Below are positions 38,428 to 61,422 of a DNA stretch of 64,000 bases, piece after piece. Where the stretch lies: assembly GCF_019802125.1 (NCBI RefSeq), contig NZ_JAHVHT010000001.1, positions 1,302,001 through 1,366,000 on the forward strand, given 5' to 3'. This DNA comes from Tateyamaria omphalii. GTDB taxonomy: Bacteria > Pseudomonadota > Alphaproteobacteria > Rhodobacterales > Rhodobacteraceae. The notes beneath the pieces are model-generated. The model had not been told where the DNA came from and searched no databases. It was given only the letters and a program-made list of their open reading frames with translations. A program made the translations under genes and the position numbers. Within the stretch, counting starts at the first letter, position 1. Every line of letters begins with the position of its first letter.

Positions 38428-38905
38428 CACGGGCTCTCCTTGCGGTCAGGCTGGTCTCCAACGTCTGCAGGTCATCCGCCAATGCGCGCGCGGATTCCGC
38501 GTCAAACCCTGACAACATGTCGCTGATCCACGCCTCATGTGCGGCAGCCTGCCGGGCAAATTCCTCTTGTCCGCGCTGAGTGAGCCGCACCAGCGACGCG
38601 CGACGATCCCCCGGCACCGGAACCCGGATCAACAACCCTTCCTCGGCCAGCCGATCCACAATGCCCGTGACGTTGCCATTGGACACTTTCAGCACGCCCG
38701 AGATCTGGCTCATCTTCAGGCCATCGGCATATCGTGACAGGGCTGCCAGCACATCGAACCGCGGCAAGGTCGTGTTGAACTCCGCCTTGAGGTTCTCGCG
38801 CAGGGAGTTTTCGACAGAGCGGCTGGCTTTCAGGAACCGCAGCCAAAGGCGCAATCGCTCCTTGGAGGCGGTTTCCAAGGGGGCCTTGGACGGGCTTATG
38901 GTCAT
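38420..38905 (-). CDS. MarR family transcriptional regulator
   Basis: A 161-residue winged-helix regulator. The DNA-binding core is around residues 50-110: [20 protein letters not shown] then [20 protein letters not shown] with the wing. MarR regulators in aroyl-CoA operons commonly bind the CoA ester as inducer, which is a reasonable model here. The gene lies inside the operon, overlapping the SDR stop by ATGA and the hydratase start by 8 bases, so it would be autoregulated. The 27-bp inverted repeat at 41983-42009 is the best candidate operator. Confidence 0.9.
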
Positions 38906-39630
38906 ATTTCGCCTCCTGACAGGCTGAGCGCGTGGCCGTTCACGGCCTGGGCGGCTTCCGACAAAAGCCACATGACCGCGCTTGCCACTTCTTCGGTTTG
39001 GACAAAGCGTTTTTGCGGGTTGTTCGCGGCCAGCGACTTGGCCGCCTCCTCACGCGCCATACCCGTCTTGTCGACGATGTTGGCGATGGACCGGTCCAGC
39101 ATGGGCGTTTCCACGAAACCCGGACAAACCGCGTTCACTGTGATCCCGGTGCGTGCAAGTTCCAGTGCCAGCGCGCGGGTCATGCCCACGACACCATGCT
39201 TGGCTGCGCAATATCCCGACACATAAGGATACCCTTTGAGCCCCGCAGTCGACGCCACTGCAACCAGACGGCCGGTCCCGGCCTCCATCATATCCGGAAG
39301 CGCAGCCTTCCAGAGGTGGAACACTCCGGCCAAATTGACATCCGTCATCGCTCGCAGGTCGCTGCCTGTCATCTTGTGAAAGGGTAAGGAGGTCGCAGCA
39401 CCTGCATTGGCAATCGCGGCCCCTATCGGGCCCTGATCGTTGCGCGCAGCCATGCAGGCGGCTGCGACGGCCTCCTCATCGGTCACATCACAGATCTGGT
39501 AGGGAAGGTTTTGTGCGGCCAGCGAGGCTTCGGTCCGGCCGAGGATTGTCACTGCGTGGCCGTCGCGCGCGAGGGTTTGCGCGATCTCTGCGCCGACGCC
39601 CGTGCCGCCACCTGACACCACAACATGCAT
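38902..39630 (-). CDS. Short-chain dehydrogenase/reductase
   Basis: SDR of 242 residues. Cofactor loop VVSGGGTGVGAEIA, NAG motif IANAGAAT, and catalytic triad Ser (VAVASTAGLKG), Tyr-x3-Lys (YCAAKHG). It should oxidise or reduce a hydroxyl/keto group of an alicyclic CoA intermediate, NAD(P)-dependent. ATG at 39630 lies 2 bases after the monooxygenase stop; the stop overlaps marR by 4 bases. It is the second gene of the operon. Confidence 0.9.
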   Translation of the reverse strand: MHVVVSGGGTGVGAEIAQTLARDGHAVTILGRTEASLAAQNLPYQICDVTDEEAVAAACMAARNDQGPIGAAIANAGAATSLPFHKMTGSDLRAMTDVNLAGVFHLWKAALPDMMEAGTGRLVAVASTAGLKGYPYVSGYCAAKHGVVGMTRALALELARTGITVNAVCPGFVETPMLDRSIANIVDKTGMAREEAAKSLAANNPQKRFVQTEEVASAVMWLLSEAAQAVNGHALSLSGGEI

Positions 39631-39632
39631 GA

Positions 39633-41927
39633 TCAGACCCGCCCGGCCATTTCCATGGCCCGGTCCGCCAGCCGCCAAGCCTGGTCACGCCCGGCTTCAT
39701 AGGGTTTGGGCCAGACCTCCTGCCGATCACCGATCTCGGCCGCGGCGTGCAGTGTCCAATAGGGATCCGACAGATGAGGCCGCGCGAGACAGACCAGATC
39801 CGCCCGGCCCGCCATCAGGATCGAGTTGACGTGGTCCGGCTCATAGATGTTGCCGACCGCCATCGTTCTGATCCCACGCTCGTTACGAATACGGTCGGAA
39901 AATGGGGTCTGGAACATGCGCCCGTAGACAGGCTGTGCCTGTGTCGAGGTTTGCCCCGCAGAGACGTCGATGATGTCGGCACCAGCGGCCTCGAAAGCAG
40001 CCGCAATTCTGACGGCTTCTTCGGCTGTCACCCCATCGTCCCCCGCCCAATCGCTTGCAGAGATCCGCACCGACATCGGCTTGTGCGCTGGCCATACCTT
40101 TCTCATCGCGCCGAAGACCTCCAGCGGATAGCGCAGGCGGTTCTCGAGGCTGCCGCCGTAGGCGTCGTTGCGGGTGTTGGACAGCGGGGAAATGAAGGAC
40201 GAGATGAGGTAACCATGCGCCGCGTGCAGTTCGATCATGTCAAAACCCGCGCGCTCTGCCATCTGAGCCGCCGATACGAACTCCTCGCGAATGCGATCCA
40301 TATCGTCGCGATCCATGGCCTTGGGCACGGCGTTTTCGTCCGACCACGGAATCGCTGATGCGGACAGAACCGGCCAATTGCCGTCAGGCAGAGGTTCATC
40401 CATACCGTCCCAGCCCAAGCGCGTTGACCCTTTGCGCCCCGCATGACCGATCTGGCAACAGATCTTGGCCTCTGTTTCGGCATGAACAAAACTCGTCAAC
40501 CGCTTCCAGGCTGCCTCATGCTCTGGAGCATATAGCCCCGGACAACCTGGCGTGATGCGCCCATCGGCCGAGGTACAGGTCATTTCGGTGTAGACCAGCC
40601 CCGCGCCGCCCTTGGCGCGTTCGCCGTAATGTATCAGGTGCCAGTCGGTCGGACAGCCATCGACAGCTTTGTACTGGGCCATCGGCGAGACGACGATACG
40701 GTTCTTCAACTCCATCTCGCGCAACCGGAAAGGCGCGAACATCGGCGCGCGCGCCGGTGCGTTGCGCCCGGCACCTGCCTGTTCCATGAACCAGCTTTCT
40801 GCCGAGCCCAACCATTCGGCATCGCGCTCGCGCAGGTTTTCGTGGCTGATCCTCTGACTGCGTGTGAGCAGCGAATAGTTCAATTGCACCGGGTCAAGAT
40901 CGAGATACCGCTCCACATCCTCAAACCACTCAACTGAATTTCGCGCCGCCGATTGCAGTCGTAGCACCTCAAGCCGGCGTTCTTCTTCATAGCGCGTGAA
41001 TGCCGCGTCCAATGTGTCTTCGGACTGGATCAAGTCAGCGAGCGAAATGGCGCTTTCGAGGGCCAGCTTTGTGCCTGACCCGATGGAAAAATGTGCCGTG
41101 GCGGCCGCGTCCCCCAAAAGCACGACGTTTTCGTGATGCCACTTTTCGCAAAGAACACGCGGAAACCGCAGCCAGGCAGAGCCGCGGATGTGGTTCGCGT
41201 TGGTCATCAGCGGGTGGCCGTCCAGGTGATCGCGGAACACATCTTCACAGATGGCGATGCTGTCCTGCTGGCTCAGATTGCCGAAACCATAGGCGTCGAA
41301 CGTCTCCTGCGTGCATTCGACAATAAACGTCGCCGTCTCGTCATCGAATTGGTAGGCGTGCGCCCAAAGCCAGCCCTTGTCGGTTTTCTCGAAAATGAAG
41401 GTGAAGGCGTCATCGAACTTCTGATGCGTCCCGAGCCATACGAACTGACACAGCCGCCGATCGATATCCGGCTGAAAGACATCGGCAAATTCCGTGCGGG
41501 TCTTTGAATTCAGCCCGTCGGCCGCGATCACGATGTCATAGTCTTCCTTGTAAGCGCTCGCGCTCTCGACCTCGGTTTCGAACTTCAGCACAACGCCCAG
41601 TTCTCGCGCGCGCTCTTGCAACAGCAGCAACAAGCGCTTGCGGCCGATACCGCAGAACCCATGACCACCGGACACAGTGCGCTTGCCCTGATGGACCAGC
41701 GCGACATCGTCCCAATAGGCGAAATGCGCGCGGATCGCATCGGCGCTGACCGCATCGTTTTGCGCAAGGTTATCGAGCGTCTCATCCGACAGAACGACAC
41801 CCCATCCGAACGTGTCGTCGGGGCGGTTGCGTTCGATCACGACGACCTCCGCGCCGGGATCACGCAGCTTCATCGAGATTCCGAAGTACAAACCCGCCGG
41901 ACCGCCACCGAGACAAGCAATGCGCAT
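39633..41927 (-). CDS. abmA: 2-aminobenzoyl-CoA monooxygenase/reductase (salicylyl-CoA 5-hydroxylase/oxidoreductase family)
   Basis: A 764-residue fusion of two flavoenzymes. Residues 1-380 are an FAD monooxygenase ([20 protein letters not shown]; the DG fold [35 protein letters not shown]). Residues 395-764 are an old-yellow-enzyme-like FMN oxidoreductase ([56 protein letters not shown]). The Azoarcus evansii homologue hydroxylates 2-aminobenzoyl-CoA and then reduces the ring to a non-aromatic oxo-cyclohexene product. First gene of the operon, starting opposite gcdH. Databases often call this family salicylyl-CoA 5-hydroxylase; the link to kynU supports aminobenzoyl-CoA here. Confidence 0.9.
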
Positions 41928-44254: not shown

Positions 44255-44425
44255 GCGGTTCGCGCTTAGGTATTCAAGCGTATCCCTCAGAACATGTGTC
44301 TCCCCTCAATCAGCGTTCCAAGGATCGGGAGAAATTTCAAGCCTGAAGAAATTCCTTTCGTTTTTTGGATAAAGCCTTCCGGCAAACAGGTGCAGCATCC
44401 CTCGATCATCAAAAGGGGAGCGATC

Positions 44426-44884: not shown

Positions 44885-44896
44885 GGAGACGGCAGC

Positions 44897-46384: not shown

Positions 46385-46443
46385 CGGCAAGGGGCCGGCG
46401 CTTGGGCTAAAGGACGCGTTGGCACCGGGAAAGACCCCGACGT

Positions 46444-46459
46444 CGGGCGAGAGCGCCCG
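46444..46459 (+). other. Short hairpin upstream of cupin copy 2
   Basis: Perfect 6-bp stem CGGGCG-agag-CGCCCG, 31 bases before the ATG of the second cupin, in the 106-base gap behind the FMO gene. It could be an mRNA processing or attenuation element. Confidence 0.35.
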
Positions 46460-46490
46460 TGTCACACACTCGCAAAACGGAGAACGTCAC

Positions 46491-47148: not shown

Positions 47149-47955
47149 ATGAACGCTACTGTGCCGGTGAAAGGCGGTGCATTGATGCAAACCTCATCAA
47201 AGTCGGATGCTCTTTATGCCCAGATGAGAGCAGATATCCTGTCACTCGATCTGACACCGGGAAGCGCCCTGCGCCTCCCGGCCCTGTCCGAGCGATATGA
47301 CGTCGGTGTGACCCCGATCCGGGAGTGCCTGAACCGGCTGAGCACTGACAAACTGGTTGTTATCGAGCACAACAAGGGCTTTCGCGTGGCGGACCTGGCG
47401 CTGGGGGATCTGCTGGATATCGAACGCGGTCGCAGCACGATCGAAGGTGCCTTGTTCTTGCGCGCGATCCGGAACGGAGGTGACGCTTGGGAGGCTGCGA
47501 TCATAGGCGCCCACCACCATCTGGCCGCGACATCACCGGTATCGGTTCTGGGCACGCAAGACGAGCTGGACCGCTGGAACAGGCGGCATGCTGCGTTCCA
47601 TGACGCCTTGATCGCGGGCGCCGATGCGCCGTGGATGCAGCACTTCCGCCAGCAACTGACCGACCAGCTTGGACGCTATCAGAAGTATATTCAGACCGGC
47701 TTGCGGGACCTATACGAAAGCCACCCGGACGCCGCTCCCAAAGCGGCCGAAACATATGCGACCGCATTGGCGATGAAACCGCATGATGAACTTTATCAGG
47801 TGGCCCTATTACGCGACGAAACCGCCGCGGAGGCCGTCTTTCAAAGCCATGTCAACTTGTCGCTTCATGCCTTTGAGAACCTCATGGCGCTGATCCCGGC
47901 CAACACGGCGATGGCCCGGACATTGCGCATACCGATGGTGGAGATCCAGATATGA
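47149..47955 (+). CDS. GntR family (FCD-type) regulator of the kynurenine genes
   Basis: A GntR regulator of up to 268 residues. Winged helix at about 20-85: LYAQMRADILSLDLTPGSAL, ALSERYDVGVTPIRECLNRL, HNKGFRVADL; then an FCD-type helical ligand domain with RHAAFHDALIAGAD and FQSHVNLSLHAFENL carrying candidate metal/ligand His residues. Start is ATG 47149 or 47185; the second has GGCGG upstream. Its stop overlaps the kynA start by ATGA, so it is the first gene of gntR-kynA-kynU and probably senses a kynurenine-pathway metabolite. Confidence 0.88.
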   Translation: MNATVPVKGGALMQTSSKSDALYAQMRADILSLDLTPGSALRLPALSERYDVGVTPIRECLNRLSTDKLVVIEHNKGFRVADLALGDLLDIERGRSTIEGALFLRAIRNGGDAWEAAIIGAHHHLAATSPVSVLGTQDELDRWNRRHAAFHDALIAGADAPWMQHFRQQLTDQLGRYQKYIQTGLRDLYESHPDAAPKAAETYATALAMKPHDELYQVALLRDETAAEAVFQSHVNLSLHAFENLMALIPANTAMARTLRIPMVEIQI

Positions 47956-48782
47956 CAGCCTATGACCCATCTGCGGACGGTGCACAGATGTCCTTTGCCA
48001 AGGACATGTCCTACATCGACTACCTCGCGCTTGATCCCATCCTTGGTGCCCAGCATCGCAAGTCTGACGCGCATGATGAAATGCTGTTCATCATCCAGCA
48101 TCAGACTTCCGAGCTCTGGATGCGCCTGGCGCTCCACGAGCTTGCCATCGCGCGCGAAGAATTGGCTGATGGCAACTTTCCGGCCGTGTTCAAGATGTTG
48201 GCACGGGTGGCGCGGATCTTTGAACAACTCAACAGCGCCTGGGACGTGCTGCGCACGATGACGCCGAGCGAATACACGGCGTTCCGGGACGATCTGGGCA
48301 AGTCGTCGGGCTTTCAGTCGCACCAGTACCGGCTTATCGAGTTCATCTTCGGCAACCGCAATACCTCGATGATGAAAATGCACGCGCACCGGCCCGAACT
48401 GCACCATATGCTGACGCAGGAAATAGGTCGCAAATCGATGTATCATGTGGCCCTGGATCAACTGGCGGGTCATCTTGGGGTGAACTTCGAACCGACAGCG
48501 TACAGGCTCGACCAACCCCACGAGGCGCATCAATCCGTGATGGACGCATGGACCGTGGTGTATGAAGACCCGGGCAAGCACTGGCCCCTTTACGAATTGG
48601 CGGAAAAGCTTGTCGACATTGAGGATTACTTCCGTCGATGGCGCTTCAACCACGTGACAACCGTTGAGCGCATCATCGGGTTCAAGCGCGGTACCGGTGG
48701 CACATCGGGCGTGAAATACCTGCGCAAGATGCTCGAGGTCGAGCTCTTTCCGGAACTCTGGCATCTGAGGGGACAACTATGA
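47952..48782 (+). CDS. kynA: Tryptophan 2,3-dioxygenase
   Basis: Heme enzyme that opens the indole ring of L-tryptophan to N-formylkynurenine. 276 residues, usual for bacteria. Marks: FIIQHQTSELWMRLALHEL with the distal His, FQSHQYRLIEFIFGNRN, RRWRFNHVTTVERIIGFKRG with the heme-ligand His, and GTGGTSGVKYL at the substrate site. It overlaps the regulator and kynU by ATGA each. It should provide the first step of the tryptophan route feeding the aminobenzoyl-CoA operon. Confidence 0.96.
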   Translation: MTAYDPSADGAQMSFAKDMSYIDYLALDPILGAQHRKSDAHDEMLFIIQHQTSELWMRLALHELAIAREELADGNFPAVFKMLARVARIFEQLNSAWDVLRTMTPSEYTAFRDDLGKSSGFQSHQYRLIEFIFGNRNTSMMKMHAHRPELHHMLTQEIGRKSMYHVALDQLAGHLGVNFEPTAYRLDQPHEAHQSVMDAWTVVYEDPGKHWPLYELAEKLVDIEDYFRRWRFNHVTTVERIIGFKRGTGGTSGVKYLRKMLEVELFPELWHLRGQL

Positions 48783-49981
48783 AAGACGCCGCTTACACTC
48801 TGCCCATGAAGGATCGTTTCGAGCTGCCACCGGGCATGATCTATCTGGATGGCAACTCCCTGGGTCCGCTGCCCAAAGGCACATCGGACAGGCTGCAGAC
48901 AATGGTGGCCCAGGAATGGGGTCAGCACCTGATAACGGGCTGGAACCGGGACGGATGGATGGAACAGCCCGCGCGCGTGGGAAACATGATCGCCCGGCTG
49001 ATCGGTGCGCCGGAGGGCAGCGTCACCATGGGCGACACGCTTTCGGTCAAGGTCTATCAGGCGCTTTCGGCAGCGCTCAAGATGCGGCCCGAGCGACGGG
49101 TGATCTTGTCCGACAGCGGGAATTTTCCGTCGGATCTTTATATGGCGCAGGGCCTGATCCGGCAGCTTGGCCAAGGATATCAGTTGCGCGTGGTGGCACC
49201 TGAAGAGGTCGGCGATGCCATGGACGACACCATTGCCGTCGCGATGATCACCCAGGTGGATTACCGGACCGGACGGATGCATGACATGGCGGAGATCACG
49301 AGGGCCGCCCATGCTGCAGGGGTCGTCATGCTATGGGACCTTGCCCACAGTGCGGGGGCGCTGCCGGTCGATCTGGCCACCGCCAACTGTGAATTCGCGG
49401 TGGGCTGCACCTACAAATACCTCAATGGCGGACCTGGGGCACCGGCCTTTATCTACGCGCGCAGCGACGTGGCCCCGATCATGGAACCGGCTCTGGCGGG
49501 GTGGCTGGGTCATGACGCCCCGTTTGCCTTTGAACCGGACTACCGCCCTGCCCCCGGCATCGCCCGCATGCGCGTCGGCACACCGCCGGTGATGCAGATG
49601 ACCGCGCTTGAGCACGCTCTGTCGATCTGGGACGAGGTGGATATGAATGCCCTGCGCGCGGCATCCATCGCGCTCTGCGATCTCTTCATCAGCGAGGTCG
49701 AGGCGCGCTGCCCCGGCTTGACCCTGGTCAGCCCACGCGACGGTGCCGAACGGGGCAGTCAGGTCTCCTTTGCTTTCGAACATGGGTATGCGGCGATGCA
49801 AGCACTGATTGATCGGAAGGTTATCGGAGATTTTCGCGCGCCAAACATCATGCGCTTCGGTTTCACGCCGCTCTACATTGATGAGGGTGACGTGCTGAAG
49901 GCGGTGGATGTTCTGGAACAGGTTGTCCGGAACCGTCTATGGGACAATGCGGTGTATCAACGAAAGGCGCTGGTCACCTGA
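48779..49981 (+). CDS. kynU: Kynureninase
   Basis: PLP enzyme that cleaves kynurenine to anthranilate and alanine. 400 residues. Marks: YLDGNSLGPLPKGT, LWDLAHSAGALPVDL with the PLP-binding Asp and His, and FAVGCTYKYLNGGPGAPAF with the PLP-Lys near residue 220. It overlaps kynA by 4 bases. A formamidase is required between KynA and KynU, but none is in the window. Anthranilate then suits the CoA ligase at 34848. Confidence 0.96.
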   Translation: MKDAAYTLPMKDRFELPPGMIYLDGNSLGPLPKGTSDRLQTMVAQEWGQHLITGWNRDGWMEQPARVGNMIARLIGAPEGSVTMGDTLSVKVYQALSAALKMRPERRVILSDSGNFPSDLYMAQGLIRQLGQGYQLRVVAPEEVGDAMDDTIAVAMITQVDYRTGRMHDMAEITRAAHAAGVVMLWDLAHSAGALPVDLATANCEFAVGCTYKYLNGGPGAPAFIYARSDVAPIMEPALAGWLGHDAPFAFEPDYRPAPGIARMRVGTPPVMQMTALEHALSIWDEVDMNALRAASIALCDLFISEVEARCPGLTLVSPRDGAERGSQVSFAFEHGYAAMQALIDRKVIGDFRAPNIMRFGFTPLYIDEGDVLKAVDVLEQVVRNRLWDNAVYQRKALVT

Positions 49982-49992
49982 GGGCGACAGCC

Positions 49993-50418
49993 TCACCCAT
50001 CTGCGAACCATTCAGGTGAAACGTCTTCCGGCGTGTTGTCCATGTCAAACGCCATCCGCCAGGTACCGTTTTCCTTGCGGAACAGCAGGAACACACGGCC
50101 GGTTGACCCCTCCTTGCCCGTCGCGGCTTCTTCAGCCGGTGGCTGGAAGTAGTAGGACCCGAGGATCCCCGCCAGATTGCCGGACTGCCAGGCCGCTTCC
50201 TCCTTGTGCAGCAGCCGTCCCTTGAGGTTCGGGATGGATCCCGCGTACCAAGGCTTCACCGCCTCAAGCCCGCGCCTCAACGGGGCCTTGGCATTCGCGT
50301 AGACACTGTCATCGGTGTAAAGAGCAAAAAGCGCGTCCAGATCCTTGCCGTTGAATGCGGCAAGCCAGTCTGTGAGGGCTTGCCGAGCGGCGTTCATCTC
50401 GTCCTGATTTTCGATCAC
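49993..50418 (-). CDS. NTF2/SnoaL-like protein, copy 1
   Basis: A ~141-residue cone-shaped NTF2-like protein (TDWLAAFNGKDLDALFALYT, then a beta sheet with GRVFLLFRKENGTWRM). The family covers ketosteroid isomerases, dehydratases and binding proteins. Start is GTG at 50418 with GGGAG seven bases upstream, one base after the stop of the AKR-Rid fusion gene (TGAGGTG); an inner ATG at 50397 is possible. It is last gene of the minus-strand arm. A second NTF2-like gene is paired with the other AKR at 57440. Confidence 0.75.
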   Translation of the reverse strand: MIENQDEMNAARQALTDWLAAFNGKDLDALFALYTDDSVYANAKAPLRRGLEAVKPWYAGSIPNLKGRLLHKEEAAWQSGNLAGILGSYYFQPPAEEAATGKEGSTGRVFLLFRKENGTWRMAFDMDNTPEDVSPEWFADG

Positions 50419-50419
50419 C

Positions 50420-51874
50420 TCAACTCTCCCCTGTCTCGGCCACGAGGGCCTCGGCCTCAATCTCAACGCGGAAATCACCGACGAGCTTGCCAACGACAAA
50501 GGTCGTGTTGGTGGGAGGATGCGCCCCGAACACACGGCCATGGGCGCGGCTCACCGCTTCGACGTCCTCCTCATGCACAATGTAGGTTCGCGTTCGGACA
50601 ACATCGCCCAGCCCCGCGCCGAGGGCTGTCAGCGTCGCTGCGATCTTGTCCAGAATGTAGGTGGTCTGCGCGCCGGCATCACCGGGGGCAATATCGTGAT
50701 CATGACCGTGCGTTGCGGTTGTTCCGGACACCACGATGCGTGCGCCGTCGCGCAGGCCTCGGCAATAGCCCGCAATGGGTTCCCACTTCGATCCCGAGAA
50801 GGCGCGGCGGCGTCCGCGGTCATCCGTCTCTACTTCCAGAACCGATGGAATCTGGCTCAGATGATGTGACAAGTCACCACTCGCCGTCAGGAAGGGCGGC
50901 TGGCGGTATTCATCCCCGCAATCCCCGGGGATGGGCTGGGTCCGGGCAAATGCGGCATCAAGCAGCGCGTGATCCTCGGCATCAAGGCTGAACTGAAACA
51001 GCTTCAGATTGTCTGTGCGGTGCTCGGCCTCTCCCAAACGCGCGCCGATGATCACGCCGGCCACGTGGGCTTGTTCCAGCACCCAGCGGGATGCGACATT
51101 CGATACCGATACGCCATGTTTCCGCGCCACCTGCGCGGCAGCCCGCAGCACAGCCTGAAAGGCGTCCCACCCGCCCGCGGTCTCGATAAAGCGCATGTAT
51201 TTCATCCGGCTCCAGTCCGGGATGTCCTCGGGTTTTGGCTGATCCAGCCATTTGTCCGTCAGAAAGCCACCGCAGAGGGTGCCATAGGCAAGCAGGCGGA
51301 CGTTCCGCTCTCGGCACAGATCCGCCAGATGCCCGGCAGCGCGCCTGTCCACCAGAGAGAAGGACACCTGGTTGGACACCAGCGGGATCCCTTCGGCCAG
51401 CGCCAGTTCGAGATGCGCTGCATCAAAGTTGGTGACCCCCAGGGCCCGTATCAGCCCTTCCTCCTTCAGGGTCGCGAGTTCCCTCAAGGCGTCCAGCCAA
51501 GCCGGGTGCTCAAAACTCCACCAGTGAAATTGCAAAAGATCGACGGTATCGACGCCAAGGCGATCCAGGCGCTCCTGCACACCGGCGCGCACGATCTCTG
51601 GCGTCATGGGCCCGGGTTCAGGGCACCACTTGGTGAAGGCATGCGCCTGCGGCTCGCGGCGCAGCATCTTGCCCGCGATCAACTCGGCGCTGCCATAGTG
51701 ATCGGCCATGTCGAAGGTATCGAACCCGGCCTGCGCATACTTCTGCAATGCGTCCGCTGCAGCGCTCAGATCCGTTTGCCTGCCGTCGCGTTCCTGATCT
51801 GCAACCTGCCAGAGACCGGTGAGAATGCGGGAAATGTTCAACCCTTCGGTCAGATCCGTTCTATCAGGTGTCAT
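50420..51874 (-). CDS. Aldo/keto reductase fused to a Rid domain
   Basis: A 484-residue two-domain protein. Residues 1-325 are an aldo/keto reductase with its tetrad visible: Asp and Tyr in DMADHYGSAE, Lys in FTKWCPEPG and His in LLQFHWWSFEHP. Residues ~350-484 are a Rid/YjgF domain (SGSKWEPIAGYCRGLRDGAR, TTYILDKIAATLTALG, FRVEIEAEALVAE). The RidA catalytic Arg position (Pro-Ala-Arg) reads PTNTTFVVG, so it is absent. A reductase joined to an imine-handling domain suggests a nitrogen-containing substrate converted to a carbonyl. It overlaps the permease gene by 11 bases, so it belongs to the importer operon. Confidence 0.88.
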   Translation of the reverse strand: MTPDRTDLTEGLNISRILTGLWQVADQERDGRQTDLSAAADALQKYAQAGFDTFDMADHYGSAELIAGKMLRREPQAHAFTKWCPEPGPMTPEIVRAGVQERLDRLGVDTVDLLQFHWWSFEHPAWLDALRELATLKEEGLIRALGVTNFDAAHLELALAEGIPLVSNQVSFSLVDRRAAGHLADLCRERNVRLLAYGTLCGGFLTDKWLDQPKPEDIPDWSRMKYMRFIETAGGWDAFQAVLRAAAQVARKHGVSVSNVASRWVLEQAHVAGVIIGARLGEAEHRTDNLKLFQFSLDAEDHALLDAAFARTQPIPGDCGDEYRQPPFLTASGDLSHHLSQIPSVLEVETDDRGRRRAFSGSKWEPIAGYCRGLRDGARIVVSGTTATHGHDHDIAPGDAGAQTTYILDKIAATLTALGAGLGDVVRTRTYIVHEEDVEAVSRAHGRVFGAHPPTNTTFVVGKLVGDFRVEIEAEALVAETGES

Positions 51875-52820
51875 GGCGGGTCCCCAGATGTTTTGAGATG
51901 GTCTGGCGCTCCGGCAACAATCCCTGCGGGCGCCAGAGCAGCAGCAGGCAGAGCATCACGCCGATCACGACGATCTGCAGTGAAGCCGCACGCGCTTGCT
52001 GATCCGCCGGAAAGACTTCGGAAATCAGACTGCCGGACAGCGCCCAGATGGCCCACACCAGCACCGCGCCCAGGATGGCGCCCATGTTGTTGCCCGACCC
52101 GCCCACGATCAGCATCGCCCAGACCTGAAAGGTCAGCATGGGCAGGTAGTTCGGGGGTGAGATGAAGCCCACGAAATGCGCCTGCACTGCACCTGCGAGC
52201 CCCATGATCGCGCCACCCAGCGCAAAGGCCTGTAACCGCAGGGCCGCAGGGTTCTTGCCCAGCGATTGCGCCGCCGCTTCATCCTCCCGGACCGCGCGCA
52301 AGACGCGGCCCCAGGGAGAGCGGGCCAGATGCTCCAGCACCAGATAGAGCACCACGACCAGCGCCGCCGCCAGCGCCAGATTGGCATAGTTGAACAGCAG
52401 GGCATTCGCCTGAACACTGCCAAAGGCACGGGGGATGAACCCGACACCGAAGACACCGCCAGTCAACACCTCGATATTCTGAAAGCACAGCTGAAGCGCA
52501 ATCGCGATCCCGAAGGTTGTGATCGCGAGATAATCGGACCGCAGGCGAAGCGTCAGCGCGCCCACCAGAAAGGAGACGACCGCGCTCACACCCGCCGCAC
52601 CGATCCAGCCAACGGCAATGGGCAAGCCGAAGCCACCGATACGGTCCGGCGTGGCGGGTGTTGTCAGAAGAACCGACGTATAGGCCCCCACCCCCACGAA
52701 CGCCGCGACACCGACGTTGAAAAGACCTGTCTGCCCCCACTGCACATTGAGGCCAAGGCAGATGATCGAAAAGGTCATTGCGAGTGTCAAAAAGAAGGCG
52801 GCATAGGCAAGGTATTCCAT
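51864..52820 (-). CDS. HAAT ABC transporter permease, LivM type
   Basis: Inner-membrane permease of 318 residues with about nine helices, LivM family of the hydrophobic amino acid transporters. Marks: GLNVQWGQTGLFNVGVAAFV near the N-terminus and the EAA-like cytoplasmic loop GRVLRAVREDEAAAQSLGKN that contacts the ATPases. The ATG at 52820 overlaps the LivH stop (TGATG). Although the family is named for branched-chain amino acids, many members import aromatic acids or amides, as the catabolic genes around it suggest. Confidence 0.9.
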   Translation of the reverse strand: MEYLAYAAFFLTLAMTFSIICLGLNVQWGQTGLFNVGVAAFVGVGAYTSVLLTTPATPDRIGGFGLPIAVGWIGAAGVSAVVSFLVGALTLRLRSDYLAITTFGIAIALQLCFQNIEVLTGGVFGVGFIPRAFGSVQANALLFNYANLALAAALVVVLYLVLEHLARSPWGRVLRAVREDEAAAQSLGKNPAALRLQAFALGGAIMGLAGAVQAHFVGFISPPNYLPMLTFQVWAMLIVGGSGNNMGAILGAVLVWAIWALSGSLISEVFPADQQARAASLQIVVIGVMLCLLLLWRPQGLLPERQTISKHLGTRHDT

Positions 52821-53737
52821 CAGGAAGGCCTCCCGAACAGGCCTGTGGGGCGCACCAACAGGACAAGGACAAGAACAATGAAAGCCACGCCTGCCCGCCA
52901 TTCTGCCCCAAAGATCTGGACGGCGAATGCCTCTGCCAGCCCGATGATCAAGCCACCGATCACGGCACCCGGAATGGATCCGACCCCGCCCAAGATCGCC
53001 GCAGCAAAGAGCGGCAGCAGCAAATCAAAGCCCATGTAGGGCCTGATCTGGACCAAAAGGCCTGACATCACACCGGCGACGCAAGCCAGGCCTGCCCCGA
53101 TGATCCAGGTGACACGAATGACACGCTGCACCTCGATCCCGTAGACACCGGCAAGGGCCGGGTTTTCCGAGACCGCCCGCATCGCCCGCCCCATCGGGGT
53201 GCGGGTGACAAACAGGTTCAGCGCCACGACCAGTACGGCCGTCAATCCGATCGTCAGCAACTGATCAGGCGTCGCGCGCATACCCAAGCCAAGTGGCTCT
53301 GCTATCTGCAATTCCCGGGTCAGATACTGGGGGTTCGCTGTGTAGATGAACTCCAGAAGCGAGCGCAGCGCCATGGATGCACCGAAACTCGCCATCACGA
53401 TGATGATCGCGTCCGCACCCCGCCGTCGCAGCCGACCAAAGAGCAGCTTGTCGAGCGCCATCGTAAGGAGAATGGTCAACGTGATCCCAATGATAAGCGA
53501 GACAGGCAGTCCCCAACCGAAGCTGAACGGACCTAGCGGTGTGGTAACCCCCAAACTCGCCACCAGCCCACCGAGAAAGCCGGACACCGAAAGTGTCAGA
53601 TAAGCCCCCCAGGCGAGGAAGTCTCCATGCGTGAAATTCGCAAATCGCAGGATTGAGTAGGTCAGCGTCAGGCCAATCGCCCCAAGGCCAATCGTTGTTC
53701 CCGCGATGAGTCCGTCGATTATCGCCTGAAAGCTCAT
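52820..53737 (-). CDS. HAAT ABC transporter permease, LivH type
   Basis: Inner-membrane permease of 305 residues with about eight helices, LivH family. Marks: GLTLTYSILRFANFTHGDFL at the start, the coupling loop RTPMGRAMRAVSENPALAGV, and AAILGGVGSIPGAVIGGLII. It overlaps LivF by ATGA and LivM by one base. Partner of the LivM permease in a heterodimeric channel. Confidence 0.92.
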   Translation of the reverse strand: MSFQAIIDGLIAGTTIGLGAIGLTLTYSILRFANFTHGDFLAWGAYLTLSVSGFLGGLVASLGVTTPLGPFSFGWGLPVSLIIGITLTILLTMALDKLLFGRLRRRGADAIIIVMASFGASMALRSLLEFIYTANPQYLTRELQIAEPLGLGMRATPDQLLTIGLTAVLVVALNLFVTRTPMGRAMRAVSENPALAGVYGIEVQRVIRVTWIIGAGLACVAGVMSGLLVQIRPYMGFDLLLPLFAAAILGGVGSIPGAVIGGLIIGLAEAFAVQIFGAEWRAGVAFIVLVLVLLVRPTGLFGRPS

Positions 53738-54465
53738 GCCTGCGCGCGCTCCGGTGATTGGCCGAGAAAGAGCTGACCGAGTGTCTTGCCATCCCGCAGC
53801 GCCTCAGTCGGTCCATCATGGGCCAATGCGCCATCGACAAGCACCAGCGCCCGCGTCGTTATTTCCAAGGCTGCGCGCACATTCTGTTCCACCAGAATCA
53901 GGGTGACCCCCGTCTCGTGAATGCGCCGCAACGTGTCAAAGACTTGCCCGACAAGCTTTGGCGAAAGACCAGCGGACGGTTCGTCGAGCATCAAGACGGG
54001 CGGGTCCGTCAAAAGGGCCCGCGCTGCCGCAAGCATCTGGCGCTGACCACCGGACAAGGCCCCTGCGAGGGCGTTGGGTCTCTCTTTCAGGTCCGGGAAC
54101 ATGTCGAACATCTTGTCGATCTGATCAGCCCGCTTGCTTGCAGGCACCAGTTCTGCCGCGATCTGCAGGTTTTCGCGAATGGTCAGCTGTGTGAAGATGT
54201 TTTCAGTCTGCGGCACGAAACCAAGGCCGCGCCGCGCCAGCGCGTGAGATGGTGCGCCTGTAATGTCATCATCGCCGAGCTGAACGCGACCTCCCAAACA
54301 GATGACCTGCCCCGCGATCGCCTTTACGAGTGTCGACTTTCCGGCGCCGTTCGGCCCCACCACGGAGACCGCCTCACCCACCTGAACATCAAAGCTCACT
54401 CCTTTGACGATTGGTAGATCAGGGTCGTATCCGGCCTGAAAATCGGTAACGGACAAAGCGGTCAT
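53734..54465 (-). CDS. HAAT ABC transporter ATP-binding protein, LivF type
   Basis: ATPase of 243 residues. Walker A VVGPNGAGKSTLVKAIA, the Q-loop near GFVPQTENIF, signature LSGGQRQMLAAARAL, Walker B VLMLDEPSAGLS and the switch His equivalent position in LVEQNV. The LVEQN motif and the short length place it in the LivF group. ATG at 54465; overlaps LivG and LivH by 4 bases each. Confidence 0.92.
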   Translation of the reverse strand: MTALSVTDFQAGYDPDLPIVKGVSFDVQVGEAVSVVGPNGAGKSTLVKAIAGQVICLGGRVQLGDDDITGAPSHALARRGLGFVPQTENIFTQLTIRENLQIAAELVPASKRADQIDKMFDMFPDLKERPNALAGALSGGQRQMLAAARALLTDPPVLMLDEPSAGLSPKLVGQVFDTLRRIHETGVTLILVEQNVRAALEITTRALVLVDGALAHDGPTEALRDGKTLGQLFLGQSPERAQA

Positions 54466-55232
54466 GACGGCATCCCATCCAGGTAGACGTCCACGACCTC
54501 GGGACGGCGCGTCACCTCTTGCGGCGCGCCTTCGGCCAGAAGCCGTCCAGCCGCCATCACCACCACCCGCGAACACAGCCGGGCGATCATGTCCATGTTG
54601 TGCTCGATCAGCAGGATAGAGATCCCGCGGCTATTGATATCGGCAATGCGGTCAATGATCAGATCAAGGAGCGCCGGGTTCACCCCGGCTGCAGGTTCGT
54701 CCAGGAGAATGACCTTTGGTTCCGTCATCAGGACCCGCGCAAGCTCGAGCAGCTTGCGTTGCCCGCCTGACAGGACGGAAGCTGGTCGGTCTTCCAGATG
54801 GCTGAGCGACACGAAGTCGATCAATGCGCGCGCCCGGGCCACGTTCGCGCGCTCCTGCGCGGCAACAGCCCCGGGACGTATCAACACCGACAAGACGTTT
54901 TCACCCACCTGCCCCTGCGCCGAGGTCATCACGTTCTCGAGGACCGTCATACGCGCGAAAGGTTTGGGAATTTGGAAACTTCTGCTCAAGCCACTGCCGC
55001 AGCGTCCCTGTTGCGACCGATCCGTGACATCCTCACCTGCAAGACGGATCACACCCGCCTTCGGCCGGAGCGTGCCAGCCAACAGATTGAACATCGTCGT
55101 CTTTCCGGCACCATTGGGGCCAATCAAACCCACAAGCTCGCCCGTCCCGACATTCAGAGACATGTCACGGACAACGTTATGGCCACCAAAGCTCATGCTG
55201 AGCCCATCGGCGGAAAGAGCGGGATTCGACAC
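54462..55232 (-). CDS. HAAT ABC transporter ATP-binding protein, LivG type
   Basis: ATPase of 256 residues, LivG group. Walker A LIGPNGAGKTTMFNLLAG, Q-loop in SRSFQIPKPFARMTVLENVM, signature LSGGQRKLLELARVL, Walker B VILLDEPAAGVNP and the switch LIEHNMD. The start is GTG at 55232 with AAGGAAG four bases before it. First gene of the minus arm, divergent from the GntR gene across two palindromes. Confidence 0.92.
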   Translation of the reverse strand: MSNPALSADGLSMSFGGHNVVRDMSLNVGTGELVGLIGPNGAGKTTMFNLLAGTLRPKAGVIRLAGEDVTDRSQQGRCGSGLSRSFQIPKPFARMTVLENVMTSAQGQVGENVLSVLIRPGAVAAQERANVARARALIDFVSLSHLEDRPASVLSGGQRKLLELARVLMTEPKVILLDEPAAGVNPALLDLIIDRIADINSRGISILLIEHNMDMIARLCSRVVVMAAGRLLAEGAPQEVTRRPEVVDVYLDGMPS

Positions 55233-55255
55233 GCGACTTCCTTAACGTCTTTAAA

Positions 55256-55284
55256 AGTTGATCAACTATCAATAATCGATTATT
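55256..55284. promoter_or_regulatory. Twin palindromes in the divergent promoter of the importer locus
   Basis: Two perfect palindromes: AGTTGATCAACT (55256-55267) and AATAATCGATTATT (55271-55284), three bases apart, in the 114-base region between the LivG and GntR starts. They are good candidate operators for the GntR regulator encoded at 55347. Confidence 0.65.
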
Positions 55285-55346
55285 AAGATGTCAAGCCCTA
55301 TCGGCAGGTCCGTTGGGTTTGGGCGACGCAACACCCGGAGGTTTCC

Positions 55347-56057
55347 TTGAGCCAGGATCCCGTAACATTGAACGGTCTGTCAGGCCTCGCGCCTGTCGCG
55401 CGTGAAACGGCGCAAGATCTTGTTTATTCGCAACTTCGCAGATCACTGATCTGCGGCGGGTTTGACGCCGGCGATGTTTTCAAGCCCGCGGACGTTGCAA
55501 AACGCATGTCCGTCAGCTCCATGCCCGTACGCGAGGCATTGGCGCGACTGGTGTCTGAACGTGCGCTTGAAGCGATGCCCAACCGTCGGGTCCGCGTGCC
55601 CTTGCTCAACCGCGATCAGATGCGCCGCATCCTCCATGCCCGCAAATTGATCGAGGGCGATCTGGTCAAAAGCGCGCTGAACAACATAACCGCACGGGAC
55701 ATCACCAAGATGGAGCTGCTCACGGACGAGTACGAGGCCGCCTCAAACGAAACGGAGGTGGCACTGGCGAACCATGCGTTTCATTTCACCATCTACGATC
55801 AGGCCCAGTCCCAGGTTCTGTTGCCATTTGCCGAAAGCCTCTGGATGCAGGCGGGTCCGTACATCCGCGCCGCGTCGCGCCTCGTATCAACGCCGCTGTC
55901 GACATCTGCCACGAAGTTTCACCACGAGATTATAGATGCCCTCCGGAACAAGGACGGCGAGGCCCTGTTGACGGCCCTCTACAACGACTTGTCGGGGCCA
56001 TTCGACATCCTTGAACACGCCCCTGAACCCGTTTGGGGAAAACCGCACCGTGCCTGA
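55347..56057 (+). CDS. GntR family (FCD-type) regulator of the importer locus
   Basis: A 236-residue GntR/FCD regulator. Winged helix at about 22-85: VYSQLRRSLICGGFDAGDVF, DVAKRMSVSSMPVREALARL, ALEAMPNRRVRVPLLNRD; the helical C-terminal domain has ALANHAFHFTIYDQAQSQVL and KFHHEIIDAL with likely metal-binding His. TTG start at 55347 preceded by GGAGG at an ideal distance. It is first gene of the plus arm and is likely to control both arms through the twin palindromes. Confidence 0.9.
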   Translation: MSQDPVTLNGLSGLAPVARETAQDLVYSQLRRSLICGGFDAGDVFKPADVAKRMSVSSMPVREALARLVSERALEAMPNRRVRVPLLNRDQMRRILHARKLIEGDLVKSALNNITARDITKMELLTDEYEAASNETEVALANHAFHFTIYDQAQSQVLLPFAESLWMQAGPYIRAASRLVSTPLSTSATKFHHEIIDALRNKDGEALLTALYNDLSGPFDILEHAPEPVWGKPHRA

Positions 56058-56394
56058 CGATCAGTTTCAGCTATGGGATCTGCGGGTCGAGGTCGTGGCG
56101 CCCAAGGGCGCAACGTTGTGGTGCGGCGCCAAGGTCGGTGATTGGTTCGAATTGCAGGGCGAGATGCTGCATTTGCCGGACGGGCAAGGAATTTCAATCT
56201 ACTCGCTGGCATCGGTCCTGCCACTCTTGGCAGCCAAACAGCGCCAGGCCGATCCCGCAGACTGGATGACCACCGACGCAGAGATCGCCTGCCCTGATCC
56301 AAATTGCACCTCGCGGCTGAAGATCACCCGGACAAAGCTGCGCACATTTCGTCACGGCGACACGACCGCCGTCCCCTTGAAAGGCACTCCATGA
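56050..56394 (+). CDS. TIGR04076 family protein
   Basis: A ~114-residue protein resembling the TIGR04076 family of unknown function. Marks: a beta-rich front with GDWFELQGEMLHLPDGQG, YSLASVLPLLAAKQR and the C-terminal MTTDAEIACPDPNCTSRLKITR; the two Cys of CPDPNC may bind metal. Start is GTG 56050 (8-base overlap with GntR) or TTG 56011. The stop overlaps the AKR start as ATGA, so it is translationally coupled to that reductase. Confidence 0.7.
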   Translation: MPDDQFQLWDLRVEVVAPKGATLWCGAKVGDWFELQGEMLHLPDGQGISIYSLASVLPLLAAKQRQADPADWMTTDAEIACPDPNCTSRLKITRTKLRTFRHGDTTAVPLKGTP

Positions 56395-57440
56395 CACATG
56401 TGCACCTCGGCGCCGGTCCGACCATGTCACGGGTCATCAAGGGTGGTTGGCAACTGGCTGGAGGCCATGGTCAAGTGGACCGGACCGAAGCCATCGCGGA
56501 TATGATCGCATTTTGCGATGCCGGGATCACCACCTTCGATTGTGCCGACATTTACACCGGGGTCGAAGATCTGATTGGCGCATTCCGCACCGAATACCAA
56601 AATCTTCGCGGCGCGGAAGCAGCGCGCGCCATACGTGTCCACACCAAGTACGTCCCCAATCTCGAAAATCTGACGCGAGTGACACGCGCCGATGTCGAGG
56701 CGGCCATCGACACTTCCTTGACCCGACTCAGGACCGATCAGCTGGACCTCGTCCAGTTTCACTGGTGGGATTATGAGCTTGGCAACTTGCTGGAGGTCGC
56801 GGGTTGGCTGACGGACCTGCACAAATCCGGAAAGATCCTCAACCTCGGGGGAACCAACTTTGACACCGCGCACAGCCTCGCAATGGTTGAGGCCGGTATG
56901 CCGCTGGTGTCCATGCAAGTGCAATACTCGCTGTTGGACAACAGACCAACGCATCATATGGTCGACGCGTTTGCCCCGCACGACATCCAGTTGATCTGCT
57001 ACGGTTCTGTTGCTGGCGGGTTGCTGTCCGACCGCTGGCTCGGTCAGCCCGAAATGACCACACCCTACGAAAACCGCTCTCTGACCAAGTACAAACTGAT
57101 GATTGACGAGTTTGGTGGCTGGTCCCTCTTTCAGGATCTCTTGCAGGCGCTCCGCGACGTCGCTGACCGGCATGATACAGACATCGCCACGGTGGCAAGC
57201 CGAACCATTCTGGATCGCCCCGGCGTGGGCGCGGTCATCGTCGGCGCGCGCAATCGCAGTCACCTGCCGCGCAATCTCGAAATCACCACACTGACGCTGA
57301 CCGATCAGGACCGGCAGGACATTCAGGCCGTTCTGGCGCACGCGCAACCCATTCCGGGTGATGTCTTTGACCTCGAACGCGATCGGTCGGGTCGCCATGG
57401 ATCCATCATGAAATACAACCTCAACACGGAGTCCGCATAG
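56391..57440 (+). CDS. Aldo/keto reductase, copy 2
   Basis: A 349-residue aldo/keto reductase, paralogue of the AKR part at 50420. Tetrad: Asp and Tyr in TFDCADIYTGVE, Lys in RVHTKYVPN, His in LVQFHWWDYEL; the shared QFHWW string, GGxNFDxAH and the AQPIPGD C-terminal motif show common origin with copy 1. It lacks the Rid extension. It is coupled on both sides: ATGA with TIGR04076 and a one-base TAGTG overlap with the NTF2-like gene. Confidence 0.9.
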   Translation: MTHVHLGAGPTMSRVIKGGWQLAGGHGQVDRTEAIADMIAFCDAGITTFDCADIYTGVEDLIGAFRTEYQNLRGAEAARAIRVHTKYVPNLENLTRVTRADVEAAIDTSLTRLRTDQLDLVQFHWWDYELGNLLEVAGWLTDLHKSGKILNLGGTNFDTAHSLAMVEAGMPLVSMQVQYSLLDNRPTHHMVDAFAPHDIQLICYGSVAGGLLSDRWLGQPEMTTPYENRSLTKYKLMIDEFGGWSLFQDLLQALRDVADRHDTDIATVASRTILDRPGVGAVIVGARNRSHLPRNLEITTLTLTDQDRQDIQAVLAHAQPIPGDVFDLERDRSGRHGSIMKYNLNTESA

Positions 57441-57850
57441 TGGCCGATCTCCTTGCACTCGCCGAGACCGAAATCCGCAAGCGCCATGTCTTTTTTGTCG
57501 ATTGGTATCGCGGAACGGCGGACCTGTCTGAAATGGACGTGACTGCCGCATGTTTTGCACCGGATTTTCGGATCATCTGGCCCTCGGGTGGGTATCTGGA
57601 GCGCGCACCGCTGCTGACAGCGCTGGCCAAGGCGCACAATTCAACCGGGCCTGAGTTTGAAATTCGGATCGACATCGATCACGCTGTCGCCCTGAGTGAC
57701 GACCTCTGCCTGATGACCTTCGATGAATACCAAGAGACCGCAAACGGTCCCAATGCGCGGCGGGGAACTGCTGTTTTCAGTCGCGACGACAAGGCGCCGA
57801 ACGGCGTCGTGTGGCGGCACTTGCAGGAGACATGGCTTACCCAGGAGTGA
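57440..57850 (+). CDS. NTF2/SnoaL-like protein, copy 2
   Basis: A ~136-residue NTF2-like protein starting with GTG (57440) that shares one base with the AKR stop. Sequence marks: LALAETEIRKRHVFFVDWYR and CLMTFDEYQETANG, and TAVFSRDDKAPNGVVWRHLQ. It follows the second AKR as NTF2 copy 1 follows the AKR-Rid fusion. Function not known; such proteins act as isomerases, dehydratases or small-ligand carriers. Confidence 0.78.
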   Translation: MADLLALAETEIRKRHVFFVDWYRGTADLSEMDVTAACFAPDFRIIWPSGGYLERAPLLTALAKAHNSTGPEFEIRIDIDHAVALSDDLCLMTFDEYQETANGPNARRGTAVFSRDDKAPNGVVWRHLQETWLTQE

Positions 57851-57881: not shown

Positions 57882-59138
57882 ATGAGTTCAATGAAACATG
57901 CAGCCGGGGCGGCGTTTTTGTCGCTGATGGCATCAACCGCCATGGCCTGTGAAGTAACCGTCGGCGTTGTGCTGGAATTGACCGGGCCCGCAGGCGCTTT
58001 TGGTCAGGCGGGCGCGAAATCCATTGAAATGGCTTTCCGCGACATCAACGACGCAGGTGGGGTCATCGACGGCTGTACGCTTGTCACGGACACCCGGGAC
58101 AGCCAAAGCCAGGGCAACGTGGCCGTCGATCAGGCGACACAATTGGTGAGCATCGGGAAGGTGCCAGTTGTGATCGGTGGCATCATCTCATCCGTGTCTG
58201 TTCCGGTTCTGACCTCTGTCACCGCCCCGGGAAAAATCGTGCAGATGTCGCCGGCTTCATCGTCGCCGACATTGACGCAACTTGGGCGTGAAGGAAAAAC
58301 CGGCGGATACTTTTTCCGAACCATCACATCCGACGCGCTACAGGGCGTGGCGGCGGCAAAATATGCCCGTGACAACGGCCTCGATAATCTGGCGATTATT
58401 CACGTTAACAATGACTTTGGTGTCAACTTGATGCGTGAATTCACCTCTGCCTTCGAAGCGCTCGGCGGGACCATCAAATCGACAACACCCTACAACGAAA
58501 ACCAGGCCAACTACGCATCCGAAGTCACCGCCGCCCTGTCAAGCGACCCGGAGACACTGTATCTCATCTCCTACCCCGTAGATGGGGCCACAATTGCGCG
58601 AACCTGGATCTCTCAGGGCGGGCCGCGGCAGTATCTGTTCAACGACGGCATGAACGCAGCCGAGTTCATCGAGGCGGTGGGCCCCAAATTCCTGGAAGGT
58701 GCCTTTGGCACGTCGTCCGGTACGACCGAGACGAAATCCACCGAGTACTTCTATGCCAACTACGGAGACGTCTCCGGCGGCTTTGAACCTTCGGCACCAG
58801 CGGCCGATCGATCCTATGATGCGGGTGCAATCGTTGGTCTGGCGATTGCAAAGGCCGGTGTTGCCGAAGCCGACGCCATCCGCGACGCCATCCGAGACGT
58901 TGTCGATCCGGCGGGTGAGCCGATTTATGCAGGGCCCGAGGAATTCGAGAAGGCGCTTGGCCTGATCGCCGAGGGCAAGGCGATCAAGTATGAAGGAGTG
59001 ATTGGTCCTGTGGCCTTTGATGACTACGGCGACATCTCCGGCCCGTTCCGCCTATGGCAGATCGTTGAGGGCGAGGCCGTGACAACAGGGCAAATGACGA
59101 CCGAAGAAGTTGCGGAAACGGTTGCTTCAATACAATAG
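57882..59138 (+). CDS. HAAT ABC transporter substrate-binding protein
   Basis: Periplasmic binding protein of 418 residues, LivJ/Peripla_BP_6 family. Signal peptide at 1-22 (AAGAAFLSLMASTAMA), mature start CEVTVGVVLELTGPAGAFGQ. Two lobes follow with GKVPVVIGGIISSVSVPVLT and NNDFGVNLMREFTSAF. GGAGAG precedes the ATG at 57882. The permease and ATPase genes are on the other arm, divergent from it. A Cys follows the signal cleavage but the lipobox is not canonical, so a soluble protein is more likely. Confidence 0.92.
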   Translation: MSSMKHAAGAAFLSLMASTAMACEVTVGVVLELTGPAGAFGQAGAKSIEMAFRDINDAGGVIDGCTLVTDTRDSQSQGNVAVDQATQLVSIGKVPVVIGGIISSVSVPVLTSVTAPGKIVQMSPASSSPTLTQLGREGKTGGYFFRTITSDALQGVAAAKYARDNGLDNLAIIHVNNDFGVNLMREFTSAFEALGGTIKSTTPYNENQANYASEVTAALSSDPETLYLISYPVDGATIARTWISQGGPRQYLFNDGMNAAEFIEAVGPKFLEGAFGTSSGTTETKSTEYFYANYGDVSGGFEPSAPAADRSYDAGAIVGLAIAKAGVAEADAIRDAIRDVVDPAGEPIYAGPEEFEKALGLIAEGKAIKYEGVIGPVAFDDYGDISGPFRLWQIVEGEAVTTGQMTTEEVAETVASIQ

Positions 59139-61413: not shown

Positions 61414-61422
61414 TGTCAGCTC

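Follow-up and report, generated by a model that had tools for sequence, protein, structure and literature searches.

A conserved, apparently undescribed module of an importer, aldo-keto reductases and a TIGR04076 protein next to tryptophan/kynurenine genes in Tateyamaria omphalii

Introduction

The plan of an importer encoded together with enzymes is a familiar one, and some of the protein families considered here have been met in other settings. RidA and Rid3 genes have been reported to cluster with flavin adenine dinucleotide (FAD) amine oxidases, and the Rid subfamilies without the catalytic Arg apparently do not hydrolyse imines; in the passages of PMC4433059 that deal with these Arg-less proteins their function is given as unknown and their role is called 'mysterious'. 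A TIGR04076 protein encoded in the isethionate cluster of Bilophila is annotated, in excerpts of PMC8667426, as 'potentially involved in redox reactions or iron cluster metabolism'. Here we analyse a stretch of 64,000 nucleotides from Tateyamaria omphalii (contig NZ_JAHVHT010000001.1, positions 1,302,001 to 1,366,000; this whole stretch is called the window), in which a HAAT/LIV-type importer, a TIGR04076 protein and two aldo-keto reductases (AKRs), namely AKR-B and the Rid fusion protein AKR-A, are encoded by two divergent operons.

The conserved module is real and apparently undescribed: no description of the module or its enzyme set was found in the literature searched by families and gene combinations (listings and some passages), and the enzyme set is new to that literature. 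The pairing of AKR-B with TIGR04076 and two exchangeable enzyme slots are the best-supported new facts. Judged from gene neighbourhoods, the importer, the TIGR04076/AKR-B core, the AKR-Rid slot and a TGATCA site travel together. Substrate and chemistry are hypotheses; our reading, held tentatively, is that of a GntR-controlled uptake-and-conversion module by which a compound of the tryptophan/kynurenine family would be imported, oxidised and fed to a neighbouring route.

Results

Organization of the locus

The minus-strand operon has the order LivGFHM–AKR-Rid–SnoaL and the plus-strand operon the order GntR–TIGR04076–AKR-B–NTF2-like–binding protein. The features are:

49993..50418, minus strand: N1, SnoaL/NTF2-like protein with a GTG start (PF12680 3e-9, 37.8 bits, cut-off 27)
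50420..51874, minus strand: AKR-A fused to a Rid domain (PF00248 1.8e-59, PF01042 4.7e-19)
51864..52829, minus strand: LivM-type permease (PF02653)
52820..53737, minus strand: LivH-type permease (PF02653)
53734..54465, minus strand: LivF-type ATPase (PF00005)
54462..55232, minus strand: LivG-type ATPase (PF00005)
55256..55267, no strand: palindrome AGTTGATCAACT between the arms, with a TGATCA core, likely operator
55347..56057, plus strand: GntR/FCD regulator (PF07729, PF00392)
56050..56394, plus strand: TIGR04076 protein (TIGR04076 model 58.2 bits, curated cut-off 33)
56391..57440, plus strand: AKR-B (PF00248 9e-64)
57440..57850, plus strand: N2, NTF2-like protein, optional accessory (structure model, profile match to 1tp6)
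57882..59138, plus strand: HAAT-type substrate-binding protein (PF13458)

Re-annotation bore out the gene order, strands and coordinates given for both arms in an earlier note on this DNA, which had also stated that nearly every junction overlaps. Seven of the nine junctions within the two operons do (by 11, 10, 4, 4, 8, 4 and 1 bp); the other two are gaps of 1 and 31 bp. The start of the TIGR04076 gene is best read as the GTG at 56050.

TIGR04076 is a near-constant partner of AKR-B

The loci compared were taken from the best 80 of 571 relatives, from plasmid matches and from genomes chosen for holding AKR-B, with further stretches from genomes (20 + 20 + 15). AKR-B scores at least 300 bits in 136 loci, of which 107 have flanks of 8.5 kb or longer on either side, and a full importer is present in 104 loci; the window itself stands outside all three sets. 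Bit-score cut-offs were set by us (AKR-B 300, AKR-A 250, DAO 220, kynureninase 150, Liv and binding proteins 120, tryptophan 2,3-dioxygenase (TDO) 90, GntR 60 or 100, DUF3830 60, TIGR04076 50, Rid 45 and N2 40). Many loci are close kin, and the Fisher values given below thus overstate independence.

TIGR04076 adjoins AKR-B in 106 of the 107 loci with long flanks, a constancy that the earlier note had missed. Among all 136 loci a match is absent from L007 and L117 only, and the stretch of L007 starts 121 bases before AKR-B. In 292 genomes of the order TIGR04076 was found 28 times, each time in a genome that also holds AKR-B (28/28, Fisher 3e-38); G113, the sole one of the 29 AKR-B genomes without TIGR04076, has a partial AKR-B match. 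The remaining genes recur at the 107 loci as follows: all four Liv genes in 88, the binding protein in 92, GntR in 76, AKR-A in 55 and a DAO-type oxidase in 24. The neighbours thus stay together in other genomes, as the earlier note's picture of a single locus implied.

In the same sample of the order, AKR-B occurs in 29 genomes and AKR-A in 27, with both in 22 and within 10 kb of each other in 21 of these. The three congeners in the sample lack AKR-A, AKR-B and TIGR04076, a patchy distribution such as a transferred block would leave. A search of plasmids gave 24 records with AKR-B at 51–64% identity and then, among the matches listed, nothing above 34.5%; two records are haloarchaeal and the others, as far as named, belong to Hyphomicrobiales or Rhodobacterales. 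In a sample of the class 21 of 385 matched, one of which (G473) is in fact an AKR-A. AKR-B is present in alphaproteobacteria, some betaproteobacteria and haloarchaea, and given this span its substrate may be a compound that is common in the environment.

Cys24, Cys80 and Cys85 of TIGR04076 (numbered from the codon at 56053) are invariant in 43 aligned bacterial proteins and may form a metal site; the copy of the haloarchaeal locus L004 lacks all three. No relative of TIGR04076 in the PDB was detected by a profile search at E 1. Since AKR-B and TIGR04076 are present in nearly every version of the module, they should carry its defining step. The AKR-B residues D50, Y55 and K86 are kept in 137 of 137 proteins and H124 in 102; the window AKR-B keeps the His, and the 35 proteins without it have Phe (17), Tyr (14), Cys (2), Asn (1) or Ser (1). 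A bolder proposal, which we consider unlikely, is that AKR-B would represent a new kind of aldo-keto enzyme in which the catalytic His is dispensable and to which TIGR04076 belongs as a dedicated subunit, with the Arg-less Rid and DUF3830 catalysing one and the same reaction interchangeably in a new branch of tryptophan-family catabolism.

Relationship of the two AKRs

AKR-A and AKR-B both belong to the aldo-keto reductase superfamily (PF00248), and the window proteins have the Asp-Tyr-Lys-His tetrad. The tetrad of AKR-A (D55-Y60-K82-H117) is intact, and is kept in full in 79 of 79 AKR-A proteins. The two proteins are 37% identical over 332 aligned residues (E 5e-59). With AKR-A as query in its own genome, the best non-self match is AKR-B (39%, 186 bits), followed by a protein at 30% and 56 bits. 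In a tree of 43 rows each forms one group, AKR-A with 14 rows (support 100/99) and AKR-B with 18 (90/87), and a third AKR type from some relatives forms its own group (5 rows, 100/99). A branch of length 1.11 (support 100/98) divides all three together from the remaining six AKRs in this genome; the program flags long branches among these six. Relative to the other AKRs of the genome examined by search and tree, AKR-A and AKR-B are therefore closer to each other, as supposed in the earlier note. Of the two strings cited there as shared, QFHWW is a real motif that spans the position of the catalytic His in both proteins, while AQPIPGD is not common to the two: AKR-A reads TQPIPGD, and the common string is QPIPGD. 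PIPGD was also considered as a signature of AKR-B and was dropped, since the first alignment contains six further AKR-B proteins and none of them has it.

Some further occurrences of AKR genes were noted. The third AKR type (34–38% identity to AKR-B) adjoins the module in L118, L121, L122, L123 and L126, and genes of the HyuA/HyuB hydantoinase type are present in four of these five loci (all but L122). AKR-Rid is also found away from AKR-B in L132–L137; four of these loci have a match to an OYE domain in the stretch, and L136 has NAD-kinase- and GcvP-like genes.

Two exchangeable slots

The 104 loci with a full importer carry AKR-A in 66 cases and a DAO-family FAD enzyme (at least 220 bits) in 28; none has both and 10 have neither. 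L120 was scored as having no DAO despite a DAO-fold gene at 38%. A second pair of families behaves alike: an Asn-type Rid is present in 71 loci and DUF3830 in 27, with both in none and neither in 6, of which 2 are truncated at a contig end. In L024 and L046 the missing Rid is due solely to a contig that stops within AKR-Rid. Of the 28 DAO loci, 24 have DUF3830, and the 4 lacking it coincide with the loci that carry a stand-alone Asn-Rid. Mapped on the AKR-B tree, the DAO label requires 6 changes, and supported branches force 5 of them.

The Rid domains were aligned to YjgF (1qu9), one domain per locus. The position of the catalytic Arg105 is Asn in 84 of 84, of which 77 are fused to an AKR and 7 stand alone; the Rid domain in the window thus lacks the Arg105 of RidA-type imine deaminases. 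We take Arg-less Rid and DUF3830 to have different folds. The string 'aldo' matched nowhere in the main text of PMC4433059, and PMC6742747, on 2-aminomuconate deaminase, gave nothing useful on the catalytic Arg.

Because a flavin enzyme replaces AKR-A in other loci, AKR-A seems to oxidise its substrate in the cell, and the slot exchange hints at oxidation rather than carbonyl reduction. The earlier note had proposed that an imported compound undergoes two carbonyl reductions in parallel, with a separate NTF2-like protein helping at each. Two such reductions are doubtful given that the DAO enzyme never co-occurs with AKR-A at the cut-off used and that AKR-B has often lost its catalytic His. The helpers fare no better: N1 recurs in 1 of the 107 long-flank loci (L092) and N2 in 36, and N1 and N2 have no detectable sequence similarity to each other (pairwise alignment, E 0.52). 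The mirrored layout is present in the window and in L092, which carries both NTF2-like genes, and on balance we consider the parallel reductions improbable; the mirrored AKR and NTF2 pairs were rejected as a conserved design. The pairing is a local picture rather than the plan of the system, with N1 read from its distribution as a local addition. N1 is itself of the SnoaL type, with a PF12680 score above the cut-off. The structure model of N2 (predicted local distance difference test score 95.7) has an order of helices and strands that was read as NTF2-like; its Pfam matches are below cut-off, and its profile matches the structure of PA1314 (1tp6, 2e-21).

Importer, binding protein and a shared promoter site

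The HAAT/LIV importer is complete, in that two permeases, two ATPases and a periplasmic binding protein are all encoded. In the pocket of the binding protein S103 is kept in 113 of 113 proteins and D255 in 85 (N in 23), and positions A125, S126 and S127 are also mostly conserved. We take these positions to be the amino-acid-holding sites of LIV-type proteins, and the pocket would then be amino-acid-like. The TGATCA core is present in all 67 divergent LivG/GntR intergenic regions (the window and 66 loci), whereas in 60 rounds of shuffling it was found by chance in a mean of 5.2 and a maximum of 11 regions of 67; the regions were taken between the ends of BLAST matches, and a little coding sequence is therefore included. 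We infer that GntR binds this site.

Damage control is a frequent role in the AKR and Rid families, and among named PDB entries general stress protein 69 is the best relative of AKR-B, as would suit a module that detoxifies reactive carbonyls brought in by the importer rather than one for growth on them. The dedicated importer, the local regulator and the adjacent degradation genes argue against detoxification, and a substitute flavin oxidase would make peroxide; of the explanations considered we regard this one as the most improbable.

Linkage to tryptophan and kynurenine genes

The 3' end of the minus-strand operon faces a TDO–kynureninase gene pair, and a further catabolic gene set lies beyond it:

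47952..48782, plus strand: TDO, convergent neighbour (PF03301 5e-69)
48779..49981, plus strand: kynureninase, convergent neighbour (TIGR01814 291 bits, cut-off 246)
34848..41927, minus strand: coenzyme A (CoA) ligase, acyl-CoA dehydrogenase, enoyl-CoA hydratase, SDR and flavin monooxygenase/OYE fusion (NF006101, Pfam)

With kynureninase above the TIGR01814 cut-off and TDO above that of Pfam, both kynurenine-pathway genes are present. The TDO scores 371.9 bits against the TIGR03036 cut-off of 390.7 and is slightly divergent. Forty other genomes have both TDO and AKR-B; the two are no more than 30 kb apart in 6 of them, where 0.59 is expected (P 3e-5), and this linkage lends support to the earlier note's hunch of kynurenine or anthranilate as the compounds concerned. 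TDO is present in 26 of the 29 AKR-B genomes and in 146 of 263 others. These 26, the corresponding number for the fusion and the linked genomes (6 within 30 kb, 4 within 15 kb) were counted by eye.

Among individual loci, in Aurantimonas L017 the LivM and AKR-Rid genes flank kynureninase and TDO, all on one strand, with a flavin monooxygenase/OYE fusion nearby. TDO is present in L104 and also in L046, there together with the terminal part of a CoA ligase; L123 and L126 have kynureninase-like genes, and L122 combines kynureninase with a divergent member of the TDO family and a homologue of peptide deformylase. On the haloarchaeal plasmid of L004, genes for indoleamine dioxygenase and kynureninase lie about 9–10 kb from the module. 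In the closest relative, G034 (L139/L092), the whole catabolic block known from the window ends about 3 kb from the module, and in the next relative, G021 (L138/L093), the same block lies about 12–23 kb away.

The fusion protein scores 1313 bits with NF006101 (salicylyl-CoA 5-hydroxylase/oxidoreductase; cut-off 1078), and the CoA ligase scores 353 bits with the benzoate-CoA-ligase family, below the cut-off of 375. We take the fusion to resemble 2-aminobenzoyl-CoA monooxygenase/reductase. It was found in 26 of 29 AKR-B genomes and in 93 of 263 others (by eye; Fisher 1.3e-8). The gene set at 34848..41927, together with TDO and kynureninase, is likely the downstream route. Apparent fusions in the AKR-A-only loci L132–L134 and L136 matched the OYE half only and were dropped.

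AKR-Rid could also act on the fusion product itself, 2-amino-5-oxo-cyclohexene-carbonyl-CoA, the AKR reducing the 5-oxo group and Rid removing the amine. The chemistry fits, PMC4539516 describes this product from Azoarcus evansii, and the fusion is nearby in the window, in L017 and in two close relatives. However, 98 of 119 fusion genomes lack AKR-A (by eye), L017 is the only one of the 136 fetched loci with the fusion within the AKR-B stretch, and the Rid domain lacks its catalytic Arg throughout. A role of this kind is very improbable, and on the genome count AKR-Rid was rejected as a required enzyme for this product.

Several other genes near the module deserve mention. Peptide-deformylase homologues in L088 (8511–9011) and L122 (1875–2369) could be N-formyl hydrolases. 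In L004 (973–21023), the haloarchaeal plasmid, the TIGR04076–AKR-B pair lies beside a dipeptide-type ATP-binding cassette (ABC) importer and peptidases. Two cupins and, between them, an FMO-like flavin monooxygenase (PF00743) are encoded in the window at 44294–46940, with an AraC-type gene on one side and the TDO operon on the other. Beside the binding protein, at 59171–62028, are a kynureninase-like pyridoxal-phosphate enzyme (29% identity to the window kynureninase), a cupin protein and a helix-turn-helix–cupin regulator; in L093 a 73% homologue of this cupin protein adjoins the module, and L058 has a homologue of the pyridoxal-phosphate enzyme at 53%. At the window edge (62249–63487) a thiolase-like protein (PF22691) is perhaps the start of another catabolic block.

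Discussion

In the mechanism that we propose, the HAAT importer would take up an amino-acid-like compound, most likely a derivative of the tryptophan or kynurenine family, and AKR-B paired with TIGR04076 would perform the defining redox step. AKR-A would serve as an NAD(P)+-dependent dehydrogenase for a second oxidation, a part taken in other lineages by the DAO-type flavin oxidase. The reactive product (an imine/enamine or a tautomer) would be dealt with by the Arg-less Rid domain, or elsewhere by DUF3830, and the resulting compound would pass into the tryptophan, kynurenine, anthranilate and aryl-CoA route encoded next door, with the NTF2-like proteins as optional helpers. The module probably feeds a tryptophan/kynurenine route, and at least in certain lineages, probably including this one, its product would join the kynurenine/anthranilate route. 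Hypaphorine was considered as a substrate; nothing relevant was among the titles listed in a literature search.

A number of observations weigh against this mechanism. The six TDO-linked genomes represent about four lineages (P 0.003), the TDO of one of them (G660) is divergent (28%), TDO is common anyway (172 of 292 genomes), and the association at the genome level is confounded by relatedness. The direction of the reaction is taken from gene replacement and not from chemistry. Six AKR-Rid loci (five from Hoeflea, and L104) also have a weaker DAO-fold protein of 83–119 bits. DUF3830 was gained only about 2 times on the AKR-B tree, and the Rid/DUF3830 exclusion thus rests on few independent events. 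Eighteen of the 107 loci have no Liv gene and lack AKR-A and DAO as well, while 17 of them keep TIGR04076. In the order sample AKR-B stands alone in 7 of 29 genomes and AKR-A in 5 of 27. Finally, few fetched stretches contain a kynurenine gene (TDO 3 of 107, kynureninase 4 of 107), and for this reason the downstream route may differ by lineage.

The scarcity of TDO in the fetched stretches would also suit the same module acting on an amino-acid-like or peptide-derived substrate unrelated to tryptophan, with kynurenine genes near it through the clustering of catabolic genes in islands. The importer-free loci have SSF/MFS carriers, an M20 hydrolase and DUF885, the haloarchaeon has its dipeptide-type importer and peptidases, and HyuA-type hydantoinase genes occur in 6 of 136 loci. 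The TDO linkage above chance and the presence of TDO and kynureninase inside the operon of L017 argue the other way; we regard a substrate of this kind as somewhat less likely, and retain a tryptophan- or kynurenine-family compound as our working proposal.

Whatever the substrate, three families without known function (TIGR04076, DUF3830 and the Arg-less Rid) are placed in one module. The exclusion patterns predict which families can replace which, and the exchange of Rid for DUF3830 makes the role of the Arg-less Rid proteins testable.

Among described systems, the aerobic 2-aminobenzoyl-CoA pathway of Azoarcus evansii (PMC4539516) is one that the CoA ligase and fusion of the window could serve, and here these candidates are in the company of TDO and kynureninase; the passages on that pathway do not mention the AKR–TIGR04076 module, and 93 of the 119 genomes with the fusion have no AKR-B. 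The Bilophila isethionate cluster encodes a member of the same named family, TIGR04076, but in excerpts of PMC8667426 it stands beside a glycyl-radical enzyme and microcompartment genes, unlike the protein of the window. Rid4–Rid7, as described in parts of PMC4433059, are likewise PF01042 proteins that lack the Arg on which imine hydrolysis depends. The type found in the window differs in having Asn at this position and in its fusion to an AKR in 77 of 84 cases. With LIV/HAAT amino-acid importers the window shares the full LivGFHM set, the binding protein and most pocket positions, and it differs from them in its divergent operon with AKRs. General stress protein 69 of Bacillus (GSP69, structure 1pz1), presumably the product of the gene YhdN, is the best profile match of AKR-B (1.6e-34) and shares the AKR fold, whereas AKR-B has a TIGR04076 neighbour, has often lost the catalytic His and is accompanied by a dedicated importer.

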